A DNA stretch of 64,000 nucleotides from Streptomyces sp. NBC_01341. GTDB taxonomy: Bacteria > Actinomycetota > Actinomycetes > Streptomycetales > Streptomycetaceae. Shown piece after piece: positions 17,502 to 30,099 of the stretch. Under the pieces are notes generated by a model. That model saw only the letters and a program-made list of their open reading frames with translations, made no database searches and was not told the origin of the DNA. Each line of letters opens with the position of its first letter. Position 1 is the stretch's first letter. The stretch lies in contig NZ_CP108364.1 of the NCBI RefSeq assembly GCF_035946055.1, positions 4,278,001 to 4,342,000 of the forward strand, read 5' to 3'. The position numbers were made by a program, and so were the translations under genes.

Positions 17502-18404
17502 ATGACTCAGTCGCACCCCAGGATCAGCAAAGCTGTCATTCCAGCTGCAGGTCTCGGCACCCGGTTCCTGCCGGCCACCAAGGCCACTCCCAAGGAGATG
17601 CTGCCTGTCGTCGACAAGCCCGCCATCCAGTATGTCGTCGAGGAGGCCGTCGCAGCGGGCCTCTCCGACGTGCTGATGATCACCGGTCGCAACAAGCGTC
17701 CCCTCGAGGACCACTTCGACCGGAACTACGAGCTCGAGTCCGCACTGACCCGCAAGGGCGACGCCGAACGCCTCTCCCGGGTTCAGGAGTCCAGCGACCT
17801 GGCGACCATGCACTACGTCCGCCAGGGCGACCCCCGCGGCCTCGGCCACGCCGTGCTCTGTGCCGCACCGCACGTCGGCGACCAGCCCTTCGCCGTCCTC
17901 CTCGGTGACGACCTCATCGACCCGCGCGACCCGCTGCTCGCCCGGATGGTCGAGGTCCAGGAGCGTGAGGGGGGCAGCGTCGTGGCGCTGATGGAGGTCG
18001 AGCCGTCACAGATCCACATGTACGGCTGCGCGGCCACCGAGGGCACCACCGACGGCGACGTCGTGCGCGTCACGGGACTGGTCGAGAAGCCCGACCCCGC
18101 CGAGGCGCCCAGCAACCTCGCCGTCATCGGCCGCTATGTCCTGGATCCCGCGATCTTCGGCATACTGCGCCACACCGAGCCGGGCCGCGGCGGCGAGATC
18201 CAGCTCACCGACGCGCTCCAGCTGCTGGCCGAGGACGAGAAGGTCGGCGGCCCCGTGCACGGCGTCGTCTTCAAGGGCCGTCGCTATGACACCGGCGACC
18301 GCGGCGACTATCTGCGTGCCATTGTCAGACTCGCGTGCGAACGTGAGGACCTGGGCCCGGACTTCCGGTCCTGGCTGCGCAGTTACGTCACCGAGGAGTT
18401 GTAA
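17502..18404 (+). CDS. galU: UTP-glucose-1-phosphate uridylyltransferase
   Basis: A 300-aa nucleotidyltransferase forming UDP-glucose for cell-wall and glycan synthesis. Sequence marks are KAVIPAAGLGTRFLPATKATPKEMLPVVDKPAIQYVVEEA (the nucleotide-binding signature with GxGTR and KPxxPV-like core), LLGDDLID, VTGLVEKPDPAEAPSNLAVIGRYVL and GGEIQLTDAL. Length is canonical. Start at ATG 17502, since the upstream frame (from 17319) covers the divergent promoter. The downstream moeA/glp TTG start is four bases after its stop, so the genes form an operon. Confidence 0.95.
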   Translation: MTQSHPRISKAVIPAAGLGTRFLPATKATPKEMLPVVDKPAIQYVVEEAVAAGLSDVLMITGRNKRPLEDHFDRNYELESALTRKGDAERLSRVQESSDLATMHYVRQGDPRGLGHAVLCAAPHVGDQPFAVLLGDDLIDPRDPLLARMVEVQEREGGSVVALMEVEPSQIHMYGCAATEGTTDGDVVRVTGLVEKPDPAEAPSNLAVIGRYVLDPAIFGILRHTEPGRGGEIQLTDALQLLAEDEKVGGPVHGVVFKGRRYDTGDRGDYLRAIVRLACEREDLGPDFRSWLRSYVTEEL

Positions 18405-18408
18405 CAGC

Positions 18409-19719
18409 TTGAGCAGCACGATCTGGTCGGTGGACGATCACCTGGACGACATCCTCGCCGCCGTGAGGCCGCTCGAACCCATCGAGCTGCAACTGCCCGA
18501 GGCCCAGGGCTGTGTCCTGGTCGAGGACGTCGTGGTGGAGGTGTCCCTGCCGCCCTTCGACAACAGCTCGATGGACGGGTACGCCGTCCGGATCTCCGAC
18601 GTGGAGGGTGCCAGCCAGGAGTTCCCGGCCGTCCTCACGGTCATCGGTGACGTCGCCGCCGGCGACGGGGGACTGGCCGACGGCCGGTCCGTCGGTCCCG
18701 GTGAGGCCGCGCGCATCATGACCGGCGCCCCGCTGCCGGCCGGTGCCGAGGCGGTCGTCCCGGTGGAGTGGACCGACGGCGGCACCGGGGGCGGCCCGGC
18801 CGAAACCATGCGCGCCCACAGCGACGCACCCGAGGGTGCGAGCGGCGAGGTCCGGATCCACCGGCCCGTCAAGCCGCGGGCCCACGTGCGCGCCAAGGGC
18901 AGCGACGTGCGCCCGGGTGACCTGGCGCTGCGCGCGGGTTCGGTCGTCGGGCCGCCGCAGATCGGGCTGCTCGCCGCGATCGGCCGCTCGACGGTGCGCG
19001 TGCGGCCGCGCCCGCGGGTCGTCGTGCTCTCCACCGGCAGTGAGCTGGCACAGCCGGGCGAGGAGTTGACCGGCGGTCGCATCTACGACTCCAACAGCTT
19101 CGCGCTGACGGCGGCGGCCCGGGAAGCGGGCGCCATCGCCTATCGCGTCCCCGCGGTCGCCGATGACGCGGAGACGCTGCGGGCCACGATCGAGGACCAG
19201 CTGATCCGCGCCGACATCGTCGTCACCACGGGGGGCGTGAGCGTCGGAGCGTACGACGTCGTCAAGGAGGCCCTGGCCTCGGTGGGCGACGAGGACGAGG
19301 CCGGCGGTGGCATCGACTTCCGCAAGCTCGCCATGCAGCCGGGCAAGCCCCAGGGGTTCGGATCGATCGGCCCCGACCACACGCCGCTGCTGGCGCTGCC
19401 CGGGAACCCGGTCTCCTCGTACGTCTCCTTCGAGCTCTTCGTCCGCCCGGCGATCCTGACGCTGATGGGTCTCGAGGACGTACACCGGCCGAAGGTCCGG
19501 GCCGTGCTCAGCGTCGACGGGCCGCTCTCCTCACCGGCCGGCAAGCGGCAGTTCCTGCGCGGGACCTACGACGCGCAGGCGGGCACCGTCACTCCGGTCG
19601 GAGGGGCCGGATCGCATCTGATCGCTGCCCTGGCGCAGGCGGACGCGCTGATCGTGCTGCCCGAGGACGTCACCTCCGCCGAGCCCGGCACGGAGACCGA
19701 GGTGATCCTCCTCCGCTGA
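18409..19719 (+). CDS. glp: MoeA/gephyrin-like protein (Glp), molybdopterin molybdenumtransferase fold
   Basis: A 436-aa MoeA-fold protein. It has the N-terminal domain (VDDHLDDILAAVRPLEP...PPFDNSSMDGYAVR), domain II with GEAARIMTGAPLPAGAEAVVPVEWT, the MoaB/MogA-like domain III (RVVVLSTGSEL, GGRIYDSNSFAL, VVTTGGVSVGAYDVVKEAL, PGNPVSSYVSFELFVRPAILTLMG), and the C-terminal beta-barrel domain IV. TTG 18409 is supported by gaggag ten bases upstream. MoeA inserts molybdate into adenylated molybdopterin. The galU-moeA-GNAT-sepX order matches the Glp/GlpR cell-division locus described in Corynebacterium, so this copy may act in division rather than, or besides, cofactor synthesis (inference). Confidence 0.88.
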   Translation: MSSTIWSVDDHLDDILAAVRPLEPIELQLPEAQGCVLVEDVVVEVSLPPFDNSSMDGYAVRISDVEGASQEFPAVLTVIGDVAAGDGGLADGRSVGPGEAARIMTGAPLPAGAEAVVPVEWTDGGTGGGPAETMRAHSDAPEGASGEVRIHRPVKPRAHVRAKGSDVRPGDLALRAGSVVGPPQIGLLAAIGRSTVRVRPRPRVVVLSTGSELAQPGEELTGGRIYDSNSFALTAAAREAGAIAYRVPAVADDAETLRATIEDQLIRADIVVTTGGVSVGAYDVVKEALASVGDEDEAGGGIDFRKLAMQPGKPQGFGSIGPDHTPLLALPGNPVSSYVSFELFVRPAILTLMGLEDVHRPKVRAVLSVDGPLSSPAGKRQFLRGTYDAQAGTVTPVGGAGSHLIAALAQADALIVLPEDVTSAEPGTETEVILLR

Positions 19720-19844
19720 CATCGTCGCGGTGGCGGTACGGTATCTGGCGCTGTGCCTTACCGGGGAAAGCCCCCCGGACGCCCGCCCCGCGGCATCGCG
19801 CGGGACGGGCGGGCAACCGGCGCCCTACCGCTAGGCGGAGTGAG

Positions 19845-20345
19845 TTGAGTACGCAGAACAGCCTGACGCACATCGACGAGGCGGGCGCGGCCCGCATGGT
19901 CGACGTGTCGGAGAAGGACGTGACCGCACGCGTCGCCCGCGCGAGCGGCCGGGTCCTCGTGTCCCCCCGTGTCGTCGAGCTCCTCAGGGGCGAGGGCGTC
20001 CCCAAGGGCGACGCGCTCGCCACCGCACGGATCGCCGGGATCATGGGTGCGAAGCGCACCCCCGACCTGATCCCGCTGTGCCACCCGCTCGCGGTCTCCG
20101 GCGTCAAGGTCGACCTCACCGTCGCCGACGACGCGGTGGAGATCCTCGCGACCGTGAAGACGACGGACCGTACGGGCGTCGAGATGGAGGCCCTGACCGC
20201 CGTGTCGGTCGCCGCGCTCACCGTGATCGACATGATCAAGGCGGTCGACAAGAGCGCGGTGATCACGGACGTCCGGGTCGAGGCGAAGTCGGGCGGCAAG
20301 TCCGGGGACTACCGGCGCCCCGTACCGGAGGGGACGGACGCATGA
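19845..20345 (+). CDS. moaC: Cyclic pyranopterin monophosphate synthase
   Basis: A 166-aa enzyme making cyclic pyranopterin monophosphate in molybdopterin synthesis, with MoaA. Signature stretches are THIDEAGAARMVDVSEKDVTARVARASGRV, LIPLCHPLAVSGVKVDL, the catalytic TTDRTGVEMEALTAVSVAALTVIDMIKAVDK and EAKSGGKSGDY. The TTG start at 19845 follows ggcggag. It lies 125 bp after moeA/glp and its stop overlaps the next gene as ATGA. moaA is not in the window. Confidence 0.95.
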   Translation: MSTQNSLTHIDEAGAARMVDVSEKDVTARVARASGRVLVSPRVVELLRGEGVPKGDALATARIAGIMGAKRTPDLIPLCHPLAVSGVKVDLTVADDAVEILATVKTTDRTGVEMEALTAVSVAALTVIDMIKAVDKSAVITDVRVEAKSGGKSGDYRRPVPEGTDA

Positions 20346-20866
20346 CCGCGCCCGGCAGCGGCGCGGACACCCGCACCTACCGCGCGCTCGTCGTGACCGC
20401 CTCCAACCGCGCGTCCGCCGGTGTCTACGCGGACAAGGGCGGCCCTCTCGTCGCCGACGGGCTGACCGGTCTGGGATTCGCCGTCGACGGTCCGCAGGTC
20501 GTTCCCGACGGGGACCCCGTCGAGGCAGCACTGCGCGCCGGCGTGGCCGCGGGCTACGACGTGATCGTGACCACCGGCGGGACCGGTATCTCGCCCACGG
20601 ACCGCACTCCCGAGGCCACCCGCGCCGTCGTCGGCCGGGAGGTCCCCGGCATCGCCGAGGCCATCCGCGCGGAGGGCCGGGAGAAGGTGCCGACCGCCGC
20701 GCTGTCCCGGGGTCTCGCGGGCATCGTGGACGGCACCCTGATCGTGAACCTGCCGGGCTCGACCGGAGGTGTACGCGACGGGATCGCCGTGCTGGGGAGG
20801 CTTCTGGTGCACGCCGTCGACCAACTGCGCGGCGGCGATCACCCCCGACCCGGGAGCACGAGCTGA
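20342..20866 (+). CDS. mog: MogA/MoaB-type molybdopterin adenylyltransferase
   Basis: A 174-aa protein that adenylates molybdopterin before metal insertion by MoeA. The family fold is shown by RALVVTASNRASAGVYADKGGPLVADGLTGLGF, the MPT-binding VTTGGTGISPTDRTPEATRAVVGREVPGIAEAIR, and LSRGLAGIVDGTLIVNLPGSTGGVRDGIAVLG. Start ATG overlaps the moaC stop (ATGA), indicating translational coupling. The last 25 residues are Gly/Pro-rich. Confidence 0.93.
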   Translation: MTAPGSGADTRTYRALVVTASNRASAGVYADKGGPLVADGLTGLGFAVDGPQVVPDGDPVEAALRAGVAAGYDVIVTTGGTGISPTDRTPEATRAVVGREVPGIAEAIRAEGREKVPTAALSRGLAGIVDGTLIVNLPGSTGGVRDGIAVLGRLLVHAVDQLRGGDHPRPGSTS

Positions 20867-20883
20867 ACGTCCGGACCTGGCCG

Positions 20884-21519
20884 GTGATCCTGACCGACGG
20901 CGCCGTCACCCTCCGGCCGATAAAACTGCGCGACCAGAGCATCTGGCGCGAGGTGAACCGGCGCAACCGCGACTGGCTGCGCCCTTGGGAGGCGACCGTC
21001 CCGCCCCCCGCCCCCGGCGGTCCGGTGGCGCAGCGCCCCACCTACCGTCAGATGATCCGCCACCTGCGCGCCGAGGCGAACGCCGGCCGGATGCTGCCCT
21101 TCGCGATCGAGTACGAGGGCCGCCTCGTGGGGCAGTTGACGGTGGCGGGTATCACGTGGGGCTCGATGTGCTCGGGCCACGTCGGTTACTGGGTGGACCG
21201 GAACGTGGCGGGCCGCGGGGTCATGCCCACGGCTGTGGCCCTCGCCGTCGACCACTGTTTCCGCACGGTCGGACTCCACCGCATCGAGGTGTGCATTCGG
21301 CCCGAGAACACGCCCAGCAGACGAGTCGTGGAGAAACTCGGATTCCGCTCGGAAGGACTGCGGCCGCGCTATCTCCACATCGACGGTGCGTGGCGGGACC
21401 ACCTGATCTTCGCCCTCACCGCCGAGGAGGTGCCCGACGGGCTGCTGCGGCGTTGGCGCAGGGTGCGGGCGAGTGCACCGCAACCGCCCGGGGATACGCC
21501 GCACGCACCGGGTAAATGA
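20884..21519 (+). CDS. RimJ/RimL-type GNAT acetyltransferase
   Basis: A protein of about 211 aa similar to ribosomal-protein N-terminal acetyltransferases. Visible are VTLRPIKLRDQSIWREVNRRNRDWLRPWEAT at the start, GYWVDRNVAGRGVMPTAVALAVDHCF (acetyl-CoA loop), and HRIEVCIRPENTPSRRVVEKLGFRSEGLRPRYLHIDGAWRDHLIFALTAEE. The coordinate uses GTG 20884. However, LNVRTWP precedes it in frame, beginning with a CTG at 20863 that overlaps the mog stop (cTGA), and family members usually include this part, so a CTG start is possible. A GNAT gene at this position is also part of the corynebacterial glp neighbourhood. Target unknown. Confidence 0.85.
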   Translation: MILTDGAVTLRPIKLRDQSIWREVNRRNRDWLRPWEATVPPPAPGGPVAQRPTYRQMIRHLRAEANAGRMLPFAIEYEGRLVGQLTVAGITWGSMCSGHVGYWVDRNVAGRGVMPTAVALAVDHCFRTVGLHRIEVCIRPENTPSRRVVEKLGFRSEGLRPRYLHIDGAWRDHLIFALTAEEVPDGLLRRWRRVRASAPQPPGDTPHAPGK

Positions 21520-21682
21520 AATAGGTGTTCGAATTTGATCGGTGTCTGACGGTTATCGACCCAACTTCCGTCGACTGTCGGTCCGAAGAATCGCAAAAAA
21601 AGTCCGTCATATGAGCCTGATCGTGCGACACACCGGGCCAATTGGCGGATGCTGCCGTGCAAACCCCTCTACGGTGTGAGAC

Positions 21683-22765
21683 GTGAGCAGCAGCGGCCTC
21701 ATCTACGCAGTCATCGTCGGGGCATGGGCCGCCTACTTGGTACCGATGTGGCTCCGCAGGCAGGACGAGCTCAATGAAGCCCGTCCCACGGAGCGCTTCA
21801 GCACCGCCATCCGGTTGCTGTCCGGACGCGCGGCCATGGAGCGCCGTTACGCCAGGGAGCTGCGGGAACGCGGGGCCGAGGAGGCGCCTGGCGGCGTGGA
21901 CCCGGATGCCGTCACGGACCGTATGGAGTCCGTCGACGTCCGGGCCTTTTCCGCGCCCCCGGCACATACGGAAGCCCGGTTGCGCGACCCGGCACCCGAA
22001 CGCGAGCAGGACCGGCCGCCGGCACAGGTCCGGCGGCGGCGCCCCTCCGGCGCGGAATCGGAGCGGGAGCGGCGTCAGCGCTCGCAGGTCCTTGCGCGCC
22101 GACGGCGCACGACCACGATGCTCTTCATGGCCTTCACGCTCGGCGCGGTCGTCGCCGCCGTGGGCGGGCTCCGCTTCCTGTGGGCGCCCGCAGTGCCGGC
22201 CGTGCTGCTGAGCACGTACATCGTGCATCTGCGGGCCCAGGAGCGCCGGCGGTTCGTCTTCACCATGGACCGGCGCCGTGCCGAGGTCGCCGCGCAACGG
22301 CTCCGCGAGAACCGCCCCCGCAGGCACCAGCCCGCGGCGTCGGCTCCCGCCGAGCCGGACGAGGAGCCCGAAGCGTCCGCGCCCGCTCCCACCGTCTCCC
22401 CGCAGGAGGCGGGCCGCCGCGCCCTCGTCGAGCAGACGGACCACGCCGAGTGGGTCGACCAGCAGCGCGAGCGCGGCCCCGCCCAGGGCGACAGCTGGGA
22501 GCCCGTGCCGGTCCCGCTGCCCACCTACGTCACCGCCCCCGTCGCCCCGCGCGCCACGGGCGGGGTGGAGGTCGGCGACCCGGAGACCTGGAGCGCAGCC
22601 CGTTCCAGCCCGGCCGAGCCCACCCGCCCGGATGCCTCGGAGCCCGACGCCGAGGCGCGCCCGCGCCGCCGGCCCGGCCAGCCCCGCCGCACGCGGGACC
22701 GGGGCCGCACGCCGCTCTTCGACCAGTACGACGACGGCGACCGGCCCCGCGCCGCCAACGAGTGA
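21683..22765 (+). CDS. sepX: SepX/GlpR-type two-TM cell division membrane protein
   Basis: A 360-aa protein. N-terminal TM helix (SSGLIYAVIVGAWAAYLVPMWL) then a conserved cytoplasmic patch RRQDELNEARPTERFSTAIRLLSGRAAMERRYAREL. A charged linker leads to a basic region (RRQRSQVLARRRRTTTM), a second hydrophobic hairpin (about 150-185, LFMAFTLGAVVAAVGGLRFLWAPAVPAVLLSTYIVHL), and a long Pro/Arg-rich disordered C-terminus. This matches SepX, an actinobacterial protein needed for Z-ring stability and sporulation septation in Streptomyces, and its corynebacterial counterpart GlpR, the membrane receptor for Glp. GTG start at 21683. The symbol is assigned from topology plus context, not alignment. Confidence 0.8.
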   Translation: MSSSGLIYAVIVGAWAAYLVPMWLRRQDELNEARPTERFSTAIRLLSGRAAMERRYARELRERGAEEAPGGVDPDAVTDRMESVDVRAFSAPPAHTEARLRDPAPEREQDRPPAQVRRRRPSGAESERERRQRSQVLARRRRTTTMLFMAFTLGAVVAAVGGLRFLWAPAVPAVLLSTYIVHLRAQERRRFVFTMDRRRAEVAAQRLRENRPRRHQPAASAPAEPDEEPEASAPAPTVSPQEAGRRALVEQTDHAEWVDQQRERGPAQGDSWEPVPVPLPTYVTAPVAPRATGGVEVGDPETWSAARSSPAEPTRPDASEPDAEARPRRRPGQPRRTRDRGRTPLFDQYDDGDRPRAANE

Positions 22766-22850: not shown

Positions 22851-22924
22851 GGGCCTGTGGCGCAGTCTGGTAGCGCACCTCGTTCGCATCGAGGGGGTCT
22901 GGGGTTCAAATCCCCACAGGTCCA
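22851..22924 (+). tRNA. tRNA-Ala (anticodon CGC)
   Basis: A 74-nt cloverleaf. Acceptor GGGCCTG pairs with CAGGTCC and includes the G3-U70 wobble that identifies alanine tRNAs. The anticodon stem CCTCG/CGAGG encloses the loop TTCGCAT, giving anticodon CGC. The T arm is TGGGG-TTCAAAT-CCCCA, and the discriminator base is A. CCA is not encoded beyond the discriminator. A 20-bp perfect hairpin 38 bases downstream is its likely terminator. The 3' end abuts a 155-bp direct repeat. Confidence 0.97.
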
Positions 22925-23077
22925 CCGCAGGGCCGTTCACGGGTTCACCCCGGAACGGTTCACGAGATCCCGGTCAGACGGTCACCGTCTGACCGGGATC
23001 TCGTCGTTTGAGCTCCAGCTTGTGTGAAAGTCAGCCTGCCGGGCCGCTGGGAAGCGCGGCGGTCCGCGTCGGAACGG
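22922..23077. repeat. Left copy of 155-bp direct repeat, at tRNA-Ala 3' end
   Basis: This 156-bp sequence recurs at 31198-31352 in the same orientation with about five substitutions and one indel (roughly 96-97 % identity). It begins with the last three bases of the tRNA, includes the 41-bp tRNA terminator palindrome, and ends at ggaacgg (23071-23077). Beyond that the copies diverge, with scattered matches. Together the copies bracket the transposase remnant and the Rhs operon. Confidence 0.95.
22963..23003. terminator. Perfect 20-bp hairpin, terminator of tRNA-Ala
   Basis: Left arm 22963-22982 and right arm 22984-23003 are exact reverse complements around a single C. The stem begins CGAGATCCCGG. 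A T-rich stretch (tcgtcgttt) follows on the plus strand. Confidence 0.85.
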
Positions 23078-23180: not shown

Positions 23181-24235
23181 TCAGGGGCTACGGCTCAGCG
23201 CCTGGGAGCGGGGCGGGACCGTCAAGCTGATCGTCGGGTAGGGGAGAAGTACGTCGTTCGGCTCAAGGTCGAGGCCTGTGATCGCGCTCTGCTTGCTCGC
23301 GGCCAGGTACTGCTCGAGTTCCTTGATGTTGTGGACCATGACGGTGATCGCGGACAGGAGGGTCTGGGCGACGCGACCACGAGGCTGACGCCTCTCGCGG
23401 GCGTGCAGGGCGGAGTCGACGGACTTCAGCCGTCCGTTGCCGCCTTCGATGTGAGCACGCAACGTCTGGTAGGCCAGGGCCCAGGAGGGCGTCTGCCAGG
23501 GCAGCTCCTGGCGCGTGCGGGGCATGACGTGCGCCTGCACGGTGACGGAGGACTGGCGGCAACATTTGGGGCGTTCGGCGAGCGGCAGGGTTGGGGGCTC
23601 CACGGTGGGCCGGCTTGCGGGGTGCGCGGTGCGCTCCCTGTGGGCGTCGAGGTTGATGACGACCGGTACGGGCCCCTTCTTCGGTGGTGCGCCGCGACCT
23701 TCACGCTCCTTTGCCCAAGGGCAGTTGAGCTTGGTGATGGGGCAGGCGAACCGCTCGGTTCCGCGATCGTCGAGTGTGTCCTTACGGGTGAGTGCGTACG
23801 CCTCGATCTCCTGCAGCCGCTCTCGAAGCGGGATGCGTTCACGCTCGTTCTTGGCGCTGCGGATCTGCGAGTACAGGTCGAGCAAGCGGCGTGGTGTGAG
23901 GGGGCAGAAGAGCCGACCGACTTTTGTGATCGCGCCCTGGTGATGGCATTCCTCCTCGGCGGCGCCGATCGCTTCCAGGGCCACGAGTGCGGGGTTGCTG
24001 AAACGTCCTGCGGCGTGAGCCGCCCGTGGCGGTGCACGTCGCGGCCCTTTTCGGCGAGGGCCGAGACCGCGTCGTCGAGGGGATCGTCCTGAACGCCGTC
24101 GCTCGCCACGGAAAGCACGTTCTCTGGGGCCACGGTGAGCCCGAAGGCTCGGATGGGGCGGGGGGAATGGTCCGCCCCGTCTGGATTGGCGTGGGCAGTG
24201 TCCGCAACGCCCGTCGGCGGGCCGTGACCGCCCCG
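23181..24235 (-). pseudogene. Frameshifted transposase-like gene
   Basis: Two minus-strand frames together make one coding-like sequence. An N-terminal part is open from 24235 (GTG 24133; AFGLTVAPENVLSVASDGVQDDPLDDAVSALAEKGRDVHRHG). A C-terminal 267-aa part ends at 23181 and is open upstream as AAGRFSNPALVALEAIGAAEEECHHQGAITKVGRLFCP. The switch between frames lies around 23990-24050. The C-terminal part contains RAHIEGGNGRLKSVDSALHARER, which resembles the catalytic-Glu region of DDE transposases, followed by a helical tail typical of such enzymes. No terminal inverted repeats were found, so this looks like a decayed insertion element. The transposase assignment is by resemblance only. Confidence 0.55.
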
Positions 24236-24285: not shown

Positions 24286-24615
24286 TCAGTGCCGGGGTGC
24301 CGAGTTCAGGACATCACGCTTGGCCAGCGTCTCCACTCCGGTTCCTGTGAGCGTGACCTTGCCGGAGTGAACGGTGTCCAGTTGCTCGACCTGCTTGCCG
24401 TACCACTCAATGGCGGTCAGCAAGAACCCTGGCGTGGCCGTGCCCGGGCCGGCTGCGGAAGCCGGGTGCTGGAATTCCATGCCCAGCCGTGCCGTCCCCT
24501 CAACGCAGCGGACCACACACACGGCCACGTCGTCCGCCGCGCCGGTAACGCCCGGCGTCACGGACTCGATGGACTCGATGCTTAGTGCCGCCTTCTCTGG
24601 CACGTTATCCAGCAC
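24286..24615 (-). CDS. Candidate immunity protein of the Rhs toxin, EF-Tu domain II-like barrel
   Basis: A 109-aa protein starting at GTG 24615, inside the last codons of the Rhs gene, with gaggagg nine bases upstream; the overlap implies translational coupling. This position, directly after a polymorphic toxin, is where immunity genes sit. The sequence is all-beta in pattern: VTGAADDVAVCVVRCVEGTARLGMEF, then FLLTAIEWYGKQVEQLDTVHSGKVTLTGTGVETLAKRDVL. This parallels the EF-Tu/EF-G domain II layout, where G-T/R-x-x-x-G is followed by T-x-x-x-x-E/y-G-x-x-v-e-x-x-x-x-G-x-v-x-L-x-G and a final x-R-G-D/Q-V-L. The similarity is my own reading. Function as immunity is inference. Confidence 0.65.
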   Translation of the reverse strand: MLDNVPEKAALSIESIESVTPGVTGAADDVAVCVVRCVEGTARLGMEFQHPASAAGPGTATPGFLLTAIEWYGKQVEQLDTVHSGKVTLTGTGVETLAKRDVLNSAPRH

Positions 24616-27600
24616 GTCGGTGTGCCTCCTCGACGAAGTGCGCGATCTGCTCGGGGGTGAGCTTAGGAACATCATATTCAAGGAGCGGATCGATGTCCCC
24701 GTTGCCGATCTTGCGTGGTACGTGGATGCCCATCTCGGAGAGGATCTCCCGGGCTACCGCCGATGGCACCTGCGCGGATGCGCGGGACGACAGTTCCGCC
24801 GGGCTCAGCTCGACCGGCCATTCGGCCTCCCGCGCGATGTACCCCTGGTGGACCGGGACCCCGTCCAGCGCGCCCCGCGGATAGATCTCGACGATGGCGT
24901 CGCCGAACCGCTCGGCCTGCGTCGCGAACACGCTGGCGACGCCGGGGTCGGACGAGGTCGGTGTGATGCCGTGCCGCTGCACACCGGGGCTGCCATCGAA
25001 ACCTGTGGTGGTTCCGCGGAACAGATGTGGAGGGCACGGTGACAGGCCGAGCGGGTCGGTCCAGGTGTACGGATTCAGCACATACGTCGACGGGTTCGGC
25101 GCCGGGACGAGGCCGAGCGGGTCCGGGGTGAGGTATCGGGCTGTCTCCGGATCGTAGTGCCGGAAGTAGTTGTAGTGCAGCCCTGTCTCAGGGTCGTAGT
25201 ACTGGCCGGGGAAGCGCAGTGGCGTGTACGCGGTGCTGCCAGATGCCCATGTGGTGGTACCCCACAGGGTCCGGCGGCTGCGCCAGGCGATCCCGCCCTG
25301 CTCGTCGACGAGTTCGCAGGGCGCACCGACGAGGTCGGTGACAATGGCGAAGAAGCGAGAGTCGATCTCGTGCTGGGCTGCGTGTACACCGTTCGGCACA
25401 CCGACTGCTGCCGCCGCATCAACTGCACCGCCCGCTTGCACCAGGGTGCGTAGGTTGCCCAAGGGGTCTGCCTGAGCGCTGTGTCGACCATCCCCCGCCT
25501 CCTGCGGCACCGCCGCCATGATGCGTTCCGTCTGGGCTACCGGTCGCAGGCCGTCGTAATCCCAAGTGAGGGTGACTGGATGAGGCGACTCGTCCGAGAC
25601 CGTGGTCTGCTCGCACAGTGTCGGCCCGTCCCAGGTGAAGTCGCTGCGCTCGACGACCGTCGTGCCGTCCGCCGACAGGCGCAGCTTGGCTATACGTCGG
25701 CCTGACGCGTCGTACTCGTACCGCCATCGCGTTCCGTCGGGTGTCGTCACTGCGGTGAGCCGGTCCTCGACGTCCCACGTGTAGCGCCACACCTCCGTCT
25801 TGCCCGACAGGTGGGTCTTGCGGCGCTGGATGATCCGGCCGTCCGCATCATGGGAGTAGCGGAGGGAACCGGCCCGGGTCAGGCGGGTGCCCTTGTACTC
25901 ACGGGGGCCTGTGGCTTCCTTCCCAGGGTGACCTTGCGGCCAGGTGGCGTGGGTCTGGTTGCCGGCTGCGTCGTAGGCGTAGCGCTCTGTCCAGCCTGCG
26001 GCGTGGACGGCGGTGACGCGTCCGGCGGGGTCGAGGTCGAAGGCGCGGGTGCCGGTGAACTGGTCGGTGAGCGTGGTCAGGTTGCCGTCGGCACTGTAGG
26101 TGTAGTCGCGGCGCTGGATGCTGCCGCCCGTGGTGCCGGTGATCTGCTGGCTGGCGAGGCGGCCAAGCGGGTCGTACCGGTTGGTGAGGGCGACAGTGTC
26201 GCCGATGTGGCGGGCAGTTTCCTGGCCGACGGCGTCATGCTCGAAGGCGATGGTGCGGCCGGATGTGGTGAGGGAGGTGCGGCCGGCGGCGTCGTCGGTC
26301 CAGGTGCTGACCGCGCCGGTGGGGGTGGTGCGGCCGGTACGACGGCCGAGGGCGTCGTAGGTATACGACATGGTGCGGCCGTTGACCGTCTCGGAGACAA
26401 GTCGGCCGTACCTGTCCCGAAGGAGCGTGACGGTTGCATCCTCGTTGACTGCTTCCGCGAGGTGGTCGGAGAAGTCGTACACGAAGGTCGTGGTGTTGCC
26501 AGCAGCGTTCTTGCGGACGACGCGGCAGAGCATGTCCCGTTCATAGCGCGTTGTTTGGCCTGCGGCGTTGGTGCGTGCAGCGAGCCGACCTGCAGCATCG
26601 CGCTCATAGCGGAGCGTCCGGTTGTCGAAGTCCGTCTCGGATATCAGCTGTCCGGCAGGATCGTATCTGTAGTCCCAGGTCAGGCGTTGAGGGTTGGTGA
26701 CCCGGGTGAGCCGGAGGTTGCTGTCGTGCGTGAATTCGTACCGGGCGCCGTCCGGCTCTGTGCGTGCCAGCAGTAGGTCGAAGTCTGTGTACTTGAAGCT
26801 GACGGTCGCGCCGACGGCATTGATATGGGTGAGGCAGTTTCCCTCACCGTCGTAGGTCCACGACTCCCGGCTTGCATCTGCCTCGGTGCGACAGGCGAGT
26901 TTGCCTTCGACAGTCCATTCGAAATGAGTGACGGCACCCCGAGCGTCGCTGATCGAGACTGGGCGGCCGAAGGTATCCCGCTTGTAGCGAGTGGCCGCGC
27001 CGAAAGGGTCGGTGACTGCGACCGGAAGCCCGGCCTTGTCGGGCGTGAGGATCGAAGTGTGCCCGAAGGTGTTGGTAATGGAGACGAGGTGGCCCACCTC
27101 GTCGTACGAGAACGCGATGGTGGCGCCGGTGGGCTCCGTGATCGAAGTGCGGTTGCCGCGTGCGTCGTAGGTCTGTCGGGTGACGTTGCCGTCGGTGCCG
27201 ACGACGCGTGCGGGGAGTCCCAGTTCGTTGTATTCGGCGTATGACCGGCGTCCGTCCGGTCGCTCCACCTCGGTCAGTCGCCCATGGTCGTCATGTGTGA
27301 AGCGGGTGATGTGGCCGAGCGGGTCGATGTGGGACAACAGGCGGTGGTATCGGTCGTATCCGAAGCGGGTGACCGCGCCGAGCGCGTCGATCTCCGCCAC
27401 GACCTGGGAGCGTTCGTTGATCACGAAGCGCTTCGTGTGACCGAGACCGTCGGTGACGGACGTCATGCGCAGGCCGGTGTCGGGGTCGGTGTCGTCCCAG
27501 GTGAAGTGGGCTTCGAGGTGGCCGTTGGTGCCGCTCTGGTATACGCAGCGGTCGTGTTCGTCGTAGACGTACTCGTACCGGCTGTTGTTGGTGTCCGTCC

Positions 27601-29452
27601 ATGCGGTGATGCGGCCCAGCTCGTCGCAGTCGAAGCGCAGGGGTTTCCCGGATGAGTTGGTGACCGTGGTGAGATGGCCGTCGGTGTAGCCGTAGCGGAG
27701 GATCTCCTGGTCGGTGCCGTCGGGGGCGGCGCCTGCCAGGTGCAGGGCGGTGACTCGGCCTTCGCTGGTGGTGAGTTTCAGGTGGTAGCCGCCGTGGTGC
27801 ACGATCGAGGTCGGAGCACCCGTCTCGTCGTGCTCGAAGGCGATCCAGCGGCCGTTGCGGTCGTCGATCTGGACCAGGAGCGCCAAGTCTCCGGTGGGCT
27901 GGTCGGCGAAGTGCCGGACCTGGCCGGTTTCCGGGTCGGTGAGGGTGTAGCCGTCGGCCACCCGGTCCAGGGGCCAGCGCCGGCCGTGCGTGGGCATGAC
28001 GGGGGCGCCAGGCGCGGGATGCGGGTAGGCGAGCAGGCTGCCCTCGCCGCAGCTGAAGACCACGCCTTGCGCGTCGATCTCCAGGCGCTGGTCGACCGTG
28101 CTCGACCAGCCGGTGCCGAACCAGCGGCCGGCGCGGTGCGAGGAGTCGAAGACGCGCTCGAAGACCAGGGGCAGTGATCCAGGCAGCACGATGTCCGTCT
28201 GCGGGAGCAGCATGCGCCCGGTCGCGACGTCGACGGGGTCTCCGGCGCACTTGACCTCGCTGCACTTCTTGGCGTTGGACTCGGGGTTCTTCTCGTGCCC
28301 TTGCCGGTTCTTGCCCTTGGGACGTTCGAGCAGGTCCTTCATTCCGGCCCGCAGACCGCCCTTGAGCAGGCCACCGCCCTTGGTACCGACCAGTTCGGGC
28401 ACGAGTCGGCCGATGAACTCGGAGGGGTCTCCCTTGGCCGCGTCCCAGGCGTTCTTGAGTGTCCGGTCCGGGTTGGCGGCGCTGGAGACGAGGCCGGCGA
28501 GCGTCATGTTGACACCCTTGTAGTACTCGGCCGGGTGCGTCAGGTTGTACGGATCGGTCGGATTGACCGAACGGACGAAGTTCAGCAGCCCTGCCGTGCC
28601 CTTGACGACACCACCACCGAAGTGCGCCAGCTCGATGCCCTGGCCGACCCCGTAGTCGAGGAGTTCCTGCTTGGCCCGGTCCAGGCCGGTGGGCTCCTTC
28701 GGAGCGTGTGCCATCGCGGCCGTGATCGCGCCCTTGGCCGCTTCGGCCGCCTCGTTGCGCGTCTGCCTGGCGCGCTGGAGGATCTCCTGCGCGTGCCGGC
28801 GCTTGGCCGCGCCCGGGTCGGTGAACGCACCCGGGTGCGGGAGGGGGTGGTCGGTGTTGCGGACCGCGTTGTACGCCTGAGCCTTCTCCTTGAAGACGGC
28901 AGCAGCAGTTTCGTAGTCCTGCTTGCCCTCCTTGTAGAGGGCGATCGCCTCACCGGCCTTGGCCTGCGCGCTGGTGACCGTCCCGGCGTACGTCTCCAAC
29001 GCCGTGGCCGCATCCTCGAACGCATCGGCCGCGCGCAGCCAGTCAGTCGGAAGGGTCTGAAACTTGGCGCGGAAGGCGTCGGCAGCCTCACCCTTCCAAT
29101 GACCGGAATCGAGCTTCCTCATCCCGCCGCCGACGAGATCGAACGCGTGTCGGAAGTCCCGGAGGTTCTTCACCGCCGCACTGATCTTCTCCGGCCGGCC
29201 GTGGATCAGCTCATTCGCTTCCTCACTCTGACCAAGCTGCTGCTCCCCGACGTCCGCACCCAGCGAAGACGCGGTCTCATCACCCCAGTCCTCGACTTTG
29301 TCGGCCCACTCGTCGGCACCGACCTTCTCCAGACCCGAGCCGAGCACATCGCTACCCTTGTCGATCCCGGTGCCGACGATCTCCTTGCCCTTGTCGACGA
29401 GATCACCGGCGCCGTCGTAAAGGGCGTCGCCCCACTTCCCCCAGTCCGCCAT
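24605..29452 (-). CDS. Rhs/YD-repeat polymorphic toxin with T7SS-type N-terminus and ART-like C-terminus
   Basis: A 1615-aa protein. Residues 1-260 are helical with an HWKGEAADAFRAKF (W-x-G-like) turn, matching the putative type VII secretion signal domain of Streptomyces Rhs proteins. Around 395-470 is the DUF6531 entry to the Rhs core (GDPVDVATGRMLLPQTDIVLPGSLPLVFERVFDSS). Some 25 YD repeats (GxxxxYxYDxxGRL) follow to ~1400, then the terminal core YFRHYDPETARYLTPDPLGL. The variable tip, 1473-1615, reads HLFRGTTTGF, ITPTSSDPGVASVFA, REAEWPVEL. This gives an R-(T/S)S-E order (R1479, S1500/S1501, E1542/E1544) as in ADP-ribosyltransferases. ATG 29452 overlaps the upstream stop (TGATG) with a ggggggag site. 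No D/E target known. Confidence 0.85.
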   Translation of the reverse strand: MADWGKWGDALYDGAGDLVDKGKEIVGTGIDKGSDVLGSGLEKVGADEWADKVEDWGDETASSLGADVGEQQLGQSEEANELIHGRPEKISAAVKNLRDFRHAFDLVGGGMRKLDSGHWKGEAADAFRAKFQTLPTDWLRAADAFEDAATALETYAGTVTSAQAKAGEAIALYKEGKQDYETAAAVFKEKAQAYNAVRNTDHPLPHPGAFTDPGAAKRRHAQEILQRARQTRNEAAEAAKGAITAAMAHAPKEPTGLDRAKQELLDYGVGQGIELAHFGGGVVKGTAGLLNFVRSVNPTDPYNLTHPAEYYKGVNMTLAGLVSSAANPDRTLKNAWDAAKGDPSEFIGRLVPELVGTKGGGLLKGGLRAGMKDLLERPKGKNRQGHEKNPESNAKKCSEVKCAGDPVDVATGRMLLPQTDIVLPGSLPLVFERVFDSSHRAGRWFGTGWSSTVDQRLEIDAQGVVFSCGEGSLLAYPHPAPGAPVMPTHGRRWPLDRVADGYTLTDPETGQVRHFADQPTGDLALLVQIDDRNGRWIAFEHDETGAPTSIVHHGGYHLKLTTSEGRVTALHLAGAAPDGTDQEILRYGYTDGHLTTVTNSSGKPLRFDCDELGRITAWTDTNNSRYEYVYDEHDRCVYQSGTNGHLEAHFTWDDTDPDTGLRMTSVTDGLGHTKRFVINERSQVVAEIDALGAVTRFGYDRYHRLLSHIDPLGHITRFTHDDHGRLTEVERPDGRRSYAEYNELGLPARVVGTDGNVTRQTYDARGNRTSITEPTGATIAFSYDEVGHLVSITNTFGHTSILTPDKAGLPVAVTDPFGAATRYKRDTFGRPVSISDARGAVTHFEWTVEGKLACRTEADASRESWTYDGEGNCLTHINAVGATVSFKYTDFDLLLARTEPDGARYEFTHDSNLRLTRVTNPQRLTWDYRYDPAGQLISETDFDNRTLRYERDAAGRLAARTNAAGQTTRYERDMLCRVVRKNAAGNTTTFVYDFSDHLAEAVNEDATVTLLRDRYGRLVSETVNGRTMSYTYDALGRRTGRTTPTGAVSTWTDDAAGRTSLTTSGRTIAFEHDAVGQETARHIGDTVALTNRYDPLGRLASQQITGTTGGSIQRRDYTYSADGNLTTLTDQFTGTRAFDLDPAGRVTAVHAAGWTERYAYDAAGNQTHATWPQGHPGKEATGPREYKGTRLTRAGSLRYSHDADGRIIQRRKTHLSGKTEVWRYTWDVEDRLTAVTTPDGTRWRYEYDASGRRIAKLRLSADGTTVVERSDFTWDGPTLCEQTTVSDESPHPVTLTWDYDGLRPVAQTERIMAAVPQEAGDGRHSAQADPLGNLRTLVQAGGAVDAAAAVGVPNGVHAAQHEIDSRFFAIVTDLVGAPCELVDEQGGIAWRSRRTLWGTTTWASGSTAYTPLRFPGQYYDPETGLHYNYFRHYDPETARYLTPDPLGLVPAPNPSTYVLNPYTWTDPLGLSPCPPHLFRGTTTGFDGSPGVQRHGITPTSSDPGVASVFATQAERFGDAIVEIYPRGALDGVPVHQGYIAREAEWPVELSPAELSSRASAQVPSAVAREILSEMGIHVPRKIGNGDIDPLLEYDVPKLTPEQIAHFVEEAHRRAG

Positions 29453-30099
29453 CAGCGACTCTCCCCCCACCGCGGCTGCTCAGCCTGACGAATCGTCTCC
29501 TGCGACGGATCGAGCCGCTCCTTCAGCTGTTCATCCGCCGCCGCCCGCACCTCCGGGTCCATCAGCCCGTTGCGCTTCATGGAGTCGAGGGCGGCGTCCT
29601 CCACGTCGTAGGCGGTGTTCTTCCAGCCCTGGTTCACCTCGTCCTGGGCGGCGCCCCATGACTCGCGGCTGTAGTCCGGGTTGTCGTACGCGGACTGGGT
29701 GCTGATCGTGTCCCAGCTCATCGCCTTGACCTCGTCCTCGGACGCATGAGGATTCCCGTTCAGGGAATTCACACCGATCTTGAACGAGTCCTTGATGTAC
29801 TGCTCCTGCTCCGCATACGAACCCGCCGACAGGCCGACGCCGAGGGCGAAGCCGTTCCCCTTCTGCGTCAGGGCCCGCACACCCCACTCCCAGCGGTTGC
29901 AGAACGTCTCGAACTCCGACGCCAGCCCGCCATGCCCCAGCTCCAGCCCCGACAAGGCCAGATCCGAAAACCCCCGGCCCGTCGAAGCCTGGCCGATGAA
30001 ACCGAGATCCTTCAGCTCCGCATGCGCCAGGTCGATCCCCTTCGCGATCTCGGCCAGCGCCTCCGGCGGCACCTGAAGATCCGCGTTGTCCCCGCTCAC
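29452..30099 (-). CDS. WXG100-like partner of the Rhs protein
   Basis: A 215-aa, mostly helical protein with no signal peptide. N-terminal helices VPPEALAEIAKGIDLAHAELKDLGF and FSDLALSGLELGHGGLASEFETFCNRWEWGVRALTQKGNGFALGVGLSAGSYAEQEQYIKDSF contain a central W-x-W-G in a helical-hairpin setting, as in WXG100/ESX-secreted partners. The C-terminal half (WDTISTQSAYDNPDYSRESWGAAQDEVNQGWKNTAYDVEDAALDSMK) is a charged helical domain unlike small Esx proteins. GTG 30099 overlaps the previous gene's stop (GTGA), and its stop overlaps the Rhs start. Likely role: co-secretion or chaperoning of the Rhs effector (inference). Confidence 0.65.
   Translation of the reverse strand: MSGDNADLQVPPEALAEIAKGIDLAHAELKDLGFIGQASTGRGFSDLALSGLELGHGGLASEFETFCNRWEWGVRALTQKGNGFALGVGLSAGSYAEQEQYIKDSFKIGVNSLNGNPHASEDEVKAMSWDTISTQSAYDNPDYSRESWGAAQDEVNQGWKNTAYDVEDAALDSMKRNGLMDPEVRAAADEQLKERLDPSQETIRQAEQPRWGESR

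Follow-up and report, generated by a model that had tools for sequence, protein, structure and literature searches.

The closest described system is the Glp–GlpR pair of Corynebacterium glutamicum, in which, according to the accessible text of PMC10522489, the MoeA homologue Glp contacts the FtsZ tail through V338, L343, L360, M361, Y369, L370 and F414, deletion of the Glp loop abolishes GlpR binding as well, and GlpR has three transmembrane segments and two disordered regions. For SepX of Streptomyces venezuelae, the accessible part of PMC8748795 describes three transmembrane segments together with two cytoplasmic regions that are disordered. The published view, as given in the available portion of PMC11733289, is that Glp has lost catalysis, is accompanied by a second MoeA and possesses an altered, presumably inactive molybdenum site. 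Here we analyse a 64,000-nucleotide stretch of Streptomyces sp. NBC_01341 (contig NZ_CP108364.1, positions 4,278,001 to 4,342,000; hereafter the window), where galU, a MoeA gene, moaC, mog, a GNAT acetyltransferase gene and a SepX-like gene follow one another at 17502-22765 on the plus strand. By a modest degree we favour the interpretation that this MoeA would be a working molybdenum insertase of the Glp lineage that most likely also acts at the divisome as a soluble partner to SepX/GlpR.

For comparison, an even draw of 118 genomes from the Actinomycetes class (completeness at least 90%) was used, 112 of which have a MoeA; the six MoeA-less genomes, all from family group f21, stand outside all MoeA counts. 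Once repeated entries for one gene had been removed (177 reduced to 157), the MoeA set comprised 157 proteins from 104 genomes; it covers not every copy in the 112 MoeA-bearing genomes, and the single-MoeA genomes G015, G017, G064 and G077 were left out. A protein was classed as a locus MoeA if a GNAT gene lies downstream on the same strand or galU directly upstream, which gave 94 locus MoeAs and 63 others. L129, whose contig stops 225 bases downstream of MoeA, was left out of the moaC/mog counts.

Database matches, locus and phylogeny support the window MoeA as the Streptomyces orthologue of C. glutamicum Glp, in agreement with the sequence-only reading, which had suggested that it may be the Streptomyces Glp. 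In the PDB it matches C. glutamicum Glp best (8bve, 245.6 bits), followed by gephyrin (188.6) and E. coli MoeA (1fc5, 179.5), and it scores 558.8 bits against the NCBIfam model NF045515, 'molybdotransferase-like divisome protein Glp' (cut-off 475), while remaining under the cut-offs of the MoeA models NF050098 (472, cut-off 560) and NF007960 (314.2, cut-off 440). The same MoeA models also miss all six single-copy intact MoeAs tested (L201, L254, L232, L216, L178 and L241), which lie below every MoeA cut-off shown, and five of these six exceed the Glp cut-off. The window genome is a single 7.41-Mb contig with 99.98% completeness and has exactly two MoeA_N matches, the window MoeA and the paralogue P0002 at C1:3853801. 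In an IQ-TREE tree, P0002 falls into a separate clade (31 rows, support 100), and C. glutamicum Glp lies deep within the locus-MoeA clade. A second tree (103 rows, nine active-site columns blanked) places the window MoeA and Glp in one 65-row clade composed mostly of intact locus MoeAs (96/95). They again share one large group (81 rows, 96/98) in a third tree of 85 rows, in which more columns were blanked and which comprises 63 of the 94 locus rows, 18 of the 80 named loci and four reference or paralogue sequences, without near-duplicates, long branches (such as L156, L138 and L140) and L103. Further likenesses to the C. glutamicum system are a homologous membrane protein, an apparent proline-rich hinge 2, and the galU-MoeA-GNAT-GlpR order, which is also that of the f4 loci grouping with it. 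The PRPR motif at hinge 2 is present in the paralogue too and is therefore not diagnostic, and hinge 1 is weakly proline-rich; the hinge bounds are approximate. Membership of Glp and SepX/GlpR in this locus is not new, because NCBIfam already carries both names.

In contrast to C. glutamicum Glp, the window MoeA has an intact active site. Conservation of the catalytic residues, to which the sequence-only reading had pointed, was scored by alignment at thirteen positions of MoeA from E. coli K-12, nine of them mutated in PDB entries; D259, K275, P298 and P301 we take to be active-site positions. Twelve of the thirteen are identical in the window MoeA, the thirteenth, K279, being Gln. The two proteins share 32–33% identity, and E. 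coli MoeA lies outside the locus clade. Gln occupies the K279 column in 65 of the 71 locus MoeAs with moaC or mog adjoining. Nine positions of Cnx1E were also scored, seven taken from Table 2 of PMC13262936 and D242 and S269 from PMC9458074, as far as the available parts of both sources go: the window MoeA reads DSDQGKSKS, Cnx1E DSDKGKSRS, P0002 DADRGHADP and C. glutamicum Glp GGAHGSARS, which lacks D228 and D259 in E. coli numbering. An AlphaFold2 model of the window MoeA reached a predicted local distance difference test (pLDDT) score of 92.3, and Foldseek ranks Glp first for it by E-value. The retained active-site residues make a good case that the window MoeA would still be a working molybdenum insertase, and we regard this part as well supported by sequence.

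The locus comprises the following features, in window positions:

17502..18404, plus strand: galU, UTP-glucose-1-phosphate uridylyltransferase (TIGR01099, 345.6 bits against a cut-off of 326.8), the upstream marker of the locus
18409..19719, plus strand: MoeA/Glp orthologue of 436 residues with a TTG start; Pfam MoeA_N, MoCF_biosynth and MoeA_C; molybdenum-insertase active site retained
19003..19020, plus strand: proline-rich hinge 2 of the window MoeA, RPRPRV, residues 199-204
19162..19257, plus strand: stretch of the window MoeA from the catalytic D252 (E. coli D228, Cnx1E D242) to D283 (E. coli D259, Cnx1E D274)
19546..19605, plus strand: domain IV hairpin of the window MoeA, a shorter equivalent of the C. 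glutamicum FtsZ-binding loop, with Gly at the Y369 column and Tyr387 at the L360 column
19845..20345, plus strand: moaC, cyclic pyranopterin monophosphate synthase
20342..20866, plus strand: mog/moaB-type protein with a MoCF_biosynth domain, overlapping moaC by 4 bases
20884..21519, plus strand: GNAT acetyltransferase, RimJ-like (NCBIfam PRK10809, 75.9 bits, under its cut-off of 190)
21683..22765, plus strand: SepX/GlpR divisome membrane protein (NCBIfam NF050099, 235.1 bits against a cut-off of 150)

This order on one strand, first noticed from the sequence alone, is borne out by Pfam and NCBIfam. The complete set of six features recurs at 42 of the 94 sampled locus MoeAs in 14 family groups, some other stretches being short or at a contig edge; the order is therefore not due to chance, which was rejected as an explanation. 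The presence of moaC and mog also distinguishes this locus from that of C. glutamicum, and the sequence-only reading had taken it for an insertion. However, moaC and/or mog adjoin 71 of the 94 locus MoeAs over 21 family groups, and they are found, without a detected GNAT gene, beside the locus MoeA in Egibacteraceae, Euzebyaceae and Nitriliruptorales (L241, L243 and L246, one metagenome-assembled genome each). An insertion in Streptomyces was rejected because these genes are common neighbours in the 21 family groups and the three metagenome-assembled genomes: the proposed direction was wrong, and it is the Corynebacterium-type locus that is without them. L241 and L243 are the first to branch among locus MoeAs in the 85-row tree. 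The arrangement with moaC/mog alongside probably came first, the Corynebacterium form appearing to be a reduced version.

The state of the active site follows the presence of these neighbours. We defined an active-site core (D242, S269, D/E274, G296 and S328 in Cnx1E numbering) and a stricter set that adds K/R369 and S400. The core is intact in 70 of the 71 locus MoeAs with moaC or mog adjoining (21 family groups). Of the 23 without them, one lies at a contig end and is not scorable, and the other 22 all have a broken core (22/22 scorable). Seven E. coli positions (D59, T100, R137, E188, D228, P298 and P301) are identical in 71/71 locus MoeAs with moaC/mog. The stricter set is kept in 63 of these 71; position 369 is occupied by Val or Ile in f24 and G007, two f16 genomes have Ala at position 400, and G039 also departs from it. 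MoaE is absent in five of 30 named-locus genomes. Three of the five have broken sites: L189, a new case, and L175 and L217, which duplicate G103 and G045.

Genomes with a single MoeA provide the clearest view of both states. Exactly one MoeA_N match was found in 59 of the 112 MoeA-bearing genomes. Among the 55 of these with sequence, 41 have a locus MoeA with moaC/mog and an intact core, eight are Moco (molybdenum cofactor)-less, one is truncated and five were not scored as locus MoeAs. MoaA and MoaE were found in 25/25 tested of the 41. Phytoactinopolyspora endophytica, Knoellia koreensis, Austwickia chelonae, an Austwickia sp. and Actinocrinis puniceicyclus are named isolates whose one MoeA is in the locus with an intact core, and MoaE is present in all five. 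The published view, with catalysis lost and a second MoeA at hand, does not fit these single-MoeA orthologues, judged by their active-site residues. The eight Moco-less genomes (f5, f11, f12 and f14) gave no MoaA, MoaE or MoaC match and have no moaC/mog in the locus; they keep galU, the GNAT gene, a SepX-family protein (by phmmer or the SepX profile) and the locus MoeA, its site broken. In a ninth genome, G068, MoaA, MoaE and MoaC are also absent and two MoeAs are present. No in-frame stop codons were seen in the locus MoeAs of seven of the eight, nor at the corresponding places of G004 and G028, and the ratios of nonsynonymous to synonymous divergence (dN/dS) are well under 1 in the pairs measured: 0.31 in f14, 0.43-0.45 in f11 and 0.08 in f5, the last with near-saturated dS; there was no f12 pair. 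Retention of the locus MoeA after loss of the Moco pathway is most simply explained by another job, and this job must predate the loss, when the active site was still intact.

These observations suggest a scenario in which the last common ancestor of the clade would already have combined the enzymatic and the division function. An enzyme with moaC/mog would have come first; where a lineage lost the Moco pathway or came to rely on a different MoeA for it, only the division function would have been kept while catalysis decayed, leaving a Corynebacterium-type Glp, so that the pure division protein would be what remains after the pathway leaves. Glp would then have begun as a bacterial gephyrin, one MoeA both making Moco and linking the Z-ring to SepX/GlpR, and enzyme-dead Glp would have arisen several times; we hold this broader proposal to be evenly poised. 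Gephyrin, which has both jobs in animals, and the plant molybdenum insertase Cnx1 offer an analogy: the window MoeA shares their scaffold and canonical active site, and its proposed further role likewise involves a membrane protein. Unlike them, the window MoeA is not fused to a MogA-type domain, and moaC and mog are separate genes. Streptomyces and many one-MoeA Actinomycetes may retain such a bifunctional MoeA to this day. For Streptomyces, the putative division half is supported by tree bracketing and synteny.

A number of observations weigh against this interpretation, here and in the alternatives below. G039 breaks the rule, having moaC/mog and a broken core, but its second MoeA is intact; L103, the one exception to the rule, is outside the 85-row tree and inside the 94-locus counts and the 103-row tree. 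L192 and L194 have an intact site and moaC/mog, yet no MoaE match (2 of the 30 named-locus genomes), so the rule is not perfect among named-locus genomes. The deep branches of the third tree are not resolved, and the other MoeA of f4 (L074) lies inside its 81-row group, unlike in the earlier two trees. In an E. coli mutant of solved structure (2nro), K279 was replaced by Gln, the residue that the window MoeA carries there. In Catenulispora and a Catenulisporales metagenome-assembled genome (L218-L221 and L223) the locus seems to be split: galU-MoeA-moaC is present, but neither GNAT nor SepX was found in roughly 5-6 kb of downstream sequence. The Moco-less assemblies are at draft level, with 70 to 250 contigs (estimated completeness 92-100%), two of the eight being Frankiaceae metagenome assemblies, so single gene absences may be assembly gaps, but three genes missing in each of eight genomes make a general artefact unlikely.

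The strongest alternative is that the Streptomyces locus MoeA would be solely a molybdenum insertase, the division role having arisen or persisted only with a Tyr369-type hairpin and SepX working without MoeA. In its favour are the intact active site beside moaC/mog and the AlphaFold2 model, whose TM score (TMq) is higher against Cnx1E (0.76-0.79) than against Glp (0.66-0.72). Streptomyces lack the C. glutamicum loop residues M361 and Y369, the window MoeA having D388 and G392 there in a shorter hairpin; here the idea that one protein does both jobs, raised by the sequence-only reading, is divided, its enzyme half standing on the intact site beside moaC/mog and its FtsZ-loop half finding no conserved residues. 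The Y369 column (C. glutamicum numbering) is aromatic (Y, W, F or H) in 50 of 94 locus MoeAs, namely in 32 of the 71 with moaC/mog (intact) and 18 of the 23 without (broken), and in 1 of 63 others; judged from this alignment, such a residue marks the locus lineage and persists after catalysis is lost. At the 360 column an aromatic residue occurs in 6/7 Streptomyces, but also in 9/63 MoeAs elsewhere, and alignment of the columns is uncertain for hairpins of unequal length. The FtsZ tail of the window genome ends in EELDVPDFLK, with an L-x-V-x-x-F spaced like the C. glutamicum contacts L435, V437 and F440. As to partners, the accessible co-immunoprecipitation text of PMC8748795 names DynA, DynB, SepF, SepF2, SsgB, FtsK and unnamed metabolic enzymes for SepX, and not MoeA. 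A weak SepX/GlpR match is kept in five of the six MoeA-less f21 genomes, so that the pair can be uncoupled and SepX/GlpR may outlive its MoeA partner. On the other hand, SepX follows the locus in 20/20 loci named Streptomyces, Actinacidiphila, Embleya or Yinghuangia, as far as the stretches reach, and lineages with broken sites flank Streptomyces in the 103-row tree (f22 G089 on one side, f4, f11, f12 and f14 on the other), which implies that the ancestor probably had a second role, although the 85-row tree leaves this placement unresolved. We consider the insertase-only explanation a serious possibility, though one we tend to doubt.

It is improbable that P0002 makes Moco while the locus MoeA, like its Corynebacterium counterpart, serves purely as a catalytically inactive Glp, although the NCBIfam name of the window protein would suit this explanation. 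A second MoeA gene, for which the sequence-only reading had proposed looking, does exist. P0002 (L003:7034-8995, that is, G000:C1 about 3853033-3854994) has a long N-terminal extension and adjoins a MobA-like/DUF6457 gene, itself next to a 2-oxoacid dehydrogenase E2 gene; a Streptomyces synteny paper calls the bkd-adjacent moeA a molybdotransferase, probably meaning the P0002 region with its E2 gene. P0002 matches E. coli MoeA better than Glp in the PDB (140.3 against 61.6 bits), and two f21 genomes with MoaA and MoaE live with a P0002-clade member as their sole MoeA, so S269 and R369 (Cnx1E numbering) seem not strictly needed. However, these sole members keep S328 and S400, whereas P0002 has S328A, R369D and S400P, and it is the window MoeA that keeps the E. 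coli positions and has moaC and mog beside it. The P0002 pattern H, A, D, P at the Cnx1E K297, S328, R369 and S400 columns is common to its relatives in f1, f15 and f18 and looks, for this reason, like a conserved alternative site and not random decay, and the function of P0002 may differ from molybdenum insertion. Finally, that the match between moaC/mog loss and active-site decay merely reflects shared ancestry in a few clades strikes us as very improbable: supported independent pairs are few and fall short of significance (5/5 concordant, sign test p 0.0625, in the 85-row tree; three pairs, p 0.25, in the 103-row tree), but each trait changed at least seven times on the 85-row tree and all supported pairs are concordant, including contrasts within f14 and f22.

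The membrane partner had been described from the sequence alone as a two-transmembrane SepX-like protein. The SepX identity stands, the protein being above the cut-off of NF050099 (SepX_GlpR_2) and thus comparable with S. venezuelae SepX, whereas the count of two does not agree with the three segments described for both SepX and GlpR, even though two segments pass in a simple hydropathy scan. A SepX profile built from 66 SepX-like proteins, none from f4, f11 or f32, recovers all eight of the proteins encoded where GlpR would lie in the f4 loci, with E-values of 3e-22 to 9e-10, the next open reading frame off that position scoring E 0.0077; it also finds those of f11 and f32. With NF050101, C. 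glutamicum was the sole match among 14 control genomes, below the cut-off. SepX and GlpR look like one family in these comparisons, as the NCBIfam names already say; we found no paper joining the two, but the link is not new since those names contain it. Among the MoeA-less f21 genomes, G021, G038, G053, G065 and G078 (1.3-1.4 Mb, one contig) have a SepX/GlpR match below the cut-off and no match to MoeA, MoaA, MoaE or MoaC.

Immediately after sepX, a tRNA-Ala (cgc) gene was identified at 22851-22926, followed by a minus-strand open reading frame of 267 amino acids without a Pfam match (23181-23984) and by an RHS-repeat protein of 1621 amino acids (24605-29470) with a type VII secretion system signal domain. 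The latter is likely of the polymorphic-toxin type, and the tRNA-Ala region is possibly an integration point. GACACT sites, which we take to be of the WhiA type, show no excess within the window (12 against 27.8 expected).

We found no paper proposing that an actinobacterial Glp keeps catalysis, in a search that covered titles and the starts of abstracts and left most subscription papers and bioRxiv outside. If the proposed scenario is true, the published order of events, with duplication first and repurposing with loss of catalysis after it, would be reversed, and the enzyme-dead Glp would be a special case of some branches. In some actinobacteria, the sole molybdenum insertase would then be labelled automatically as a 'molybdotransferase-like divisome protein'; since five of the six intact single MoeAs tested are named Glp and none MoeA, automatic annotation may leave genomes without a named molybdotransferase. 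The Streptomyces protein would be a moonlighting bacterial MoeA, one scaffold serving both metabolism and the cytoskeleton, a question that is usually put to gephyrin.

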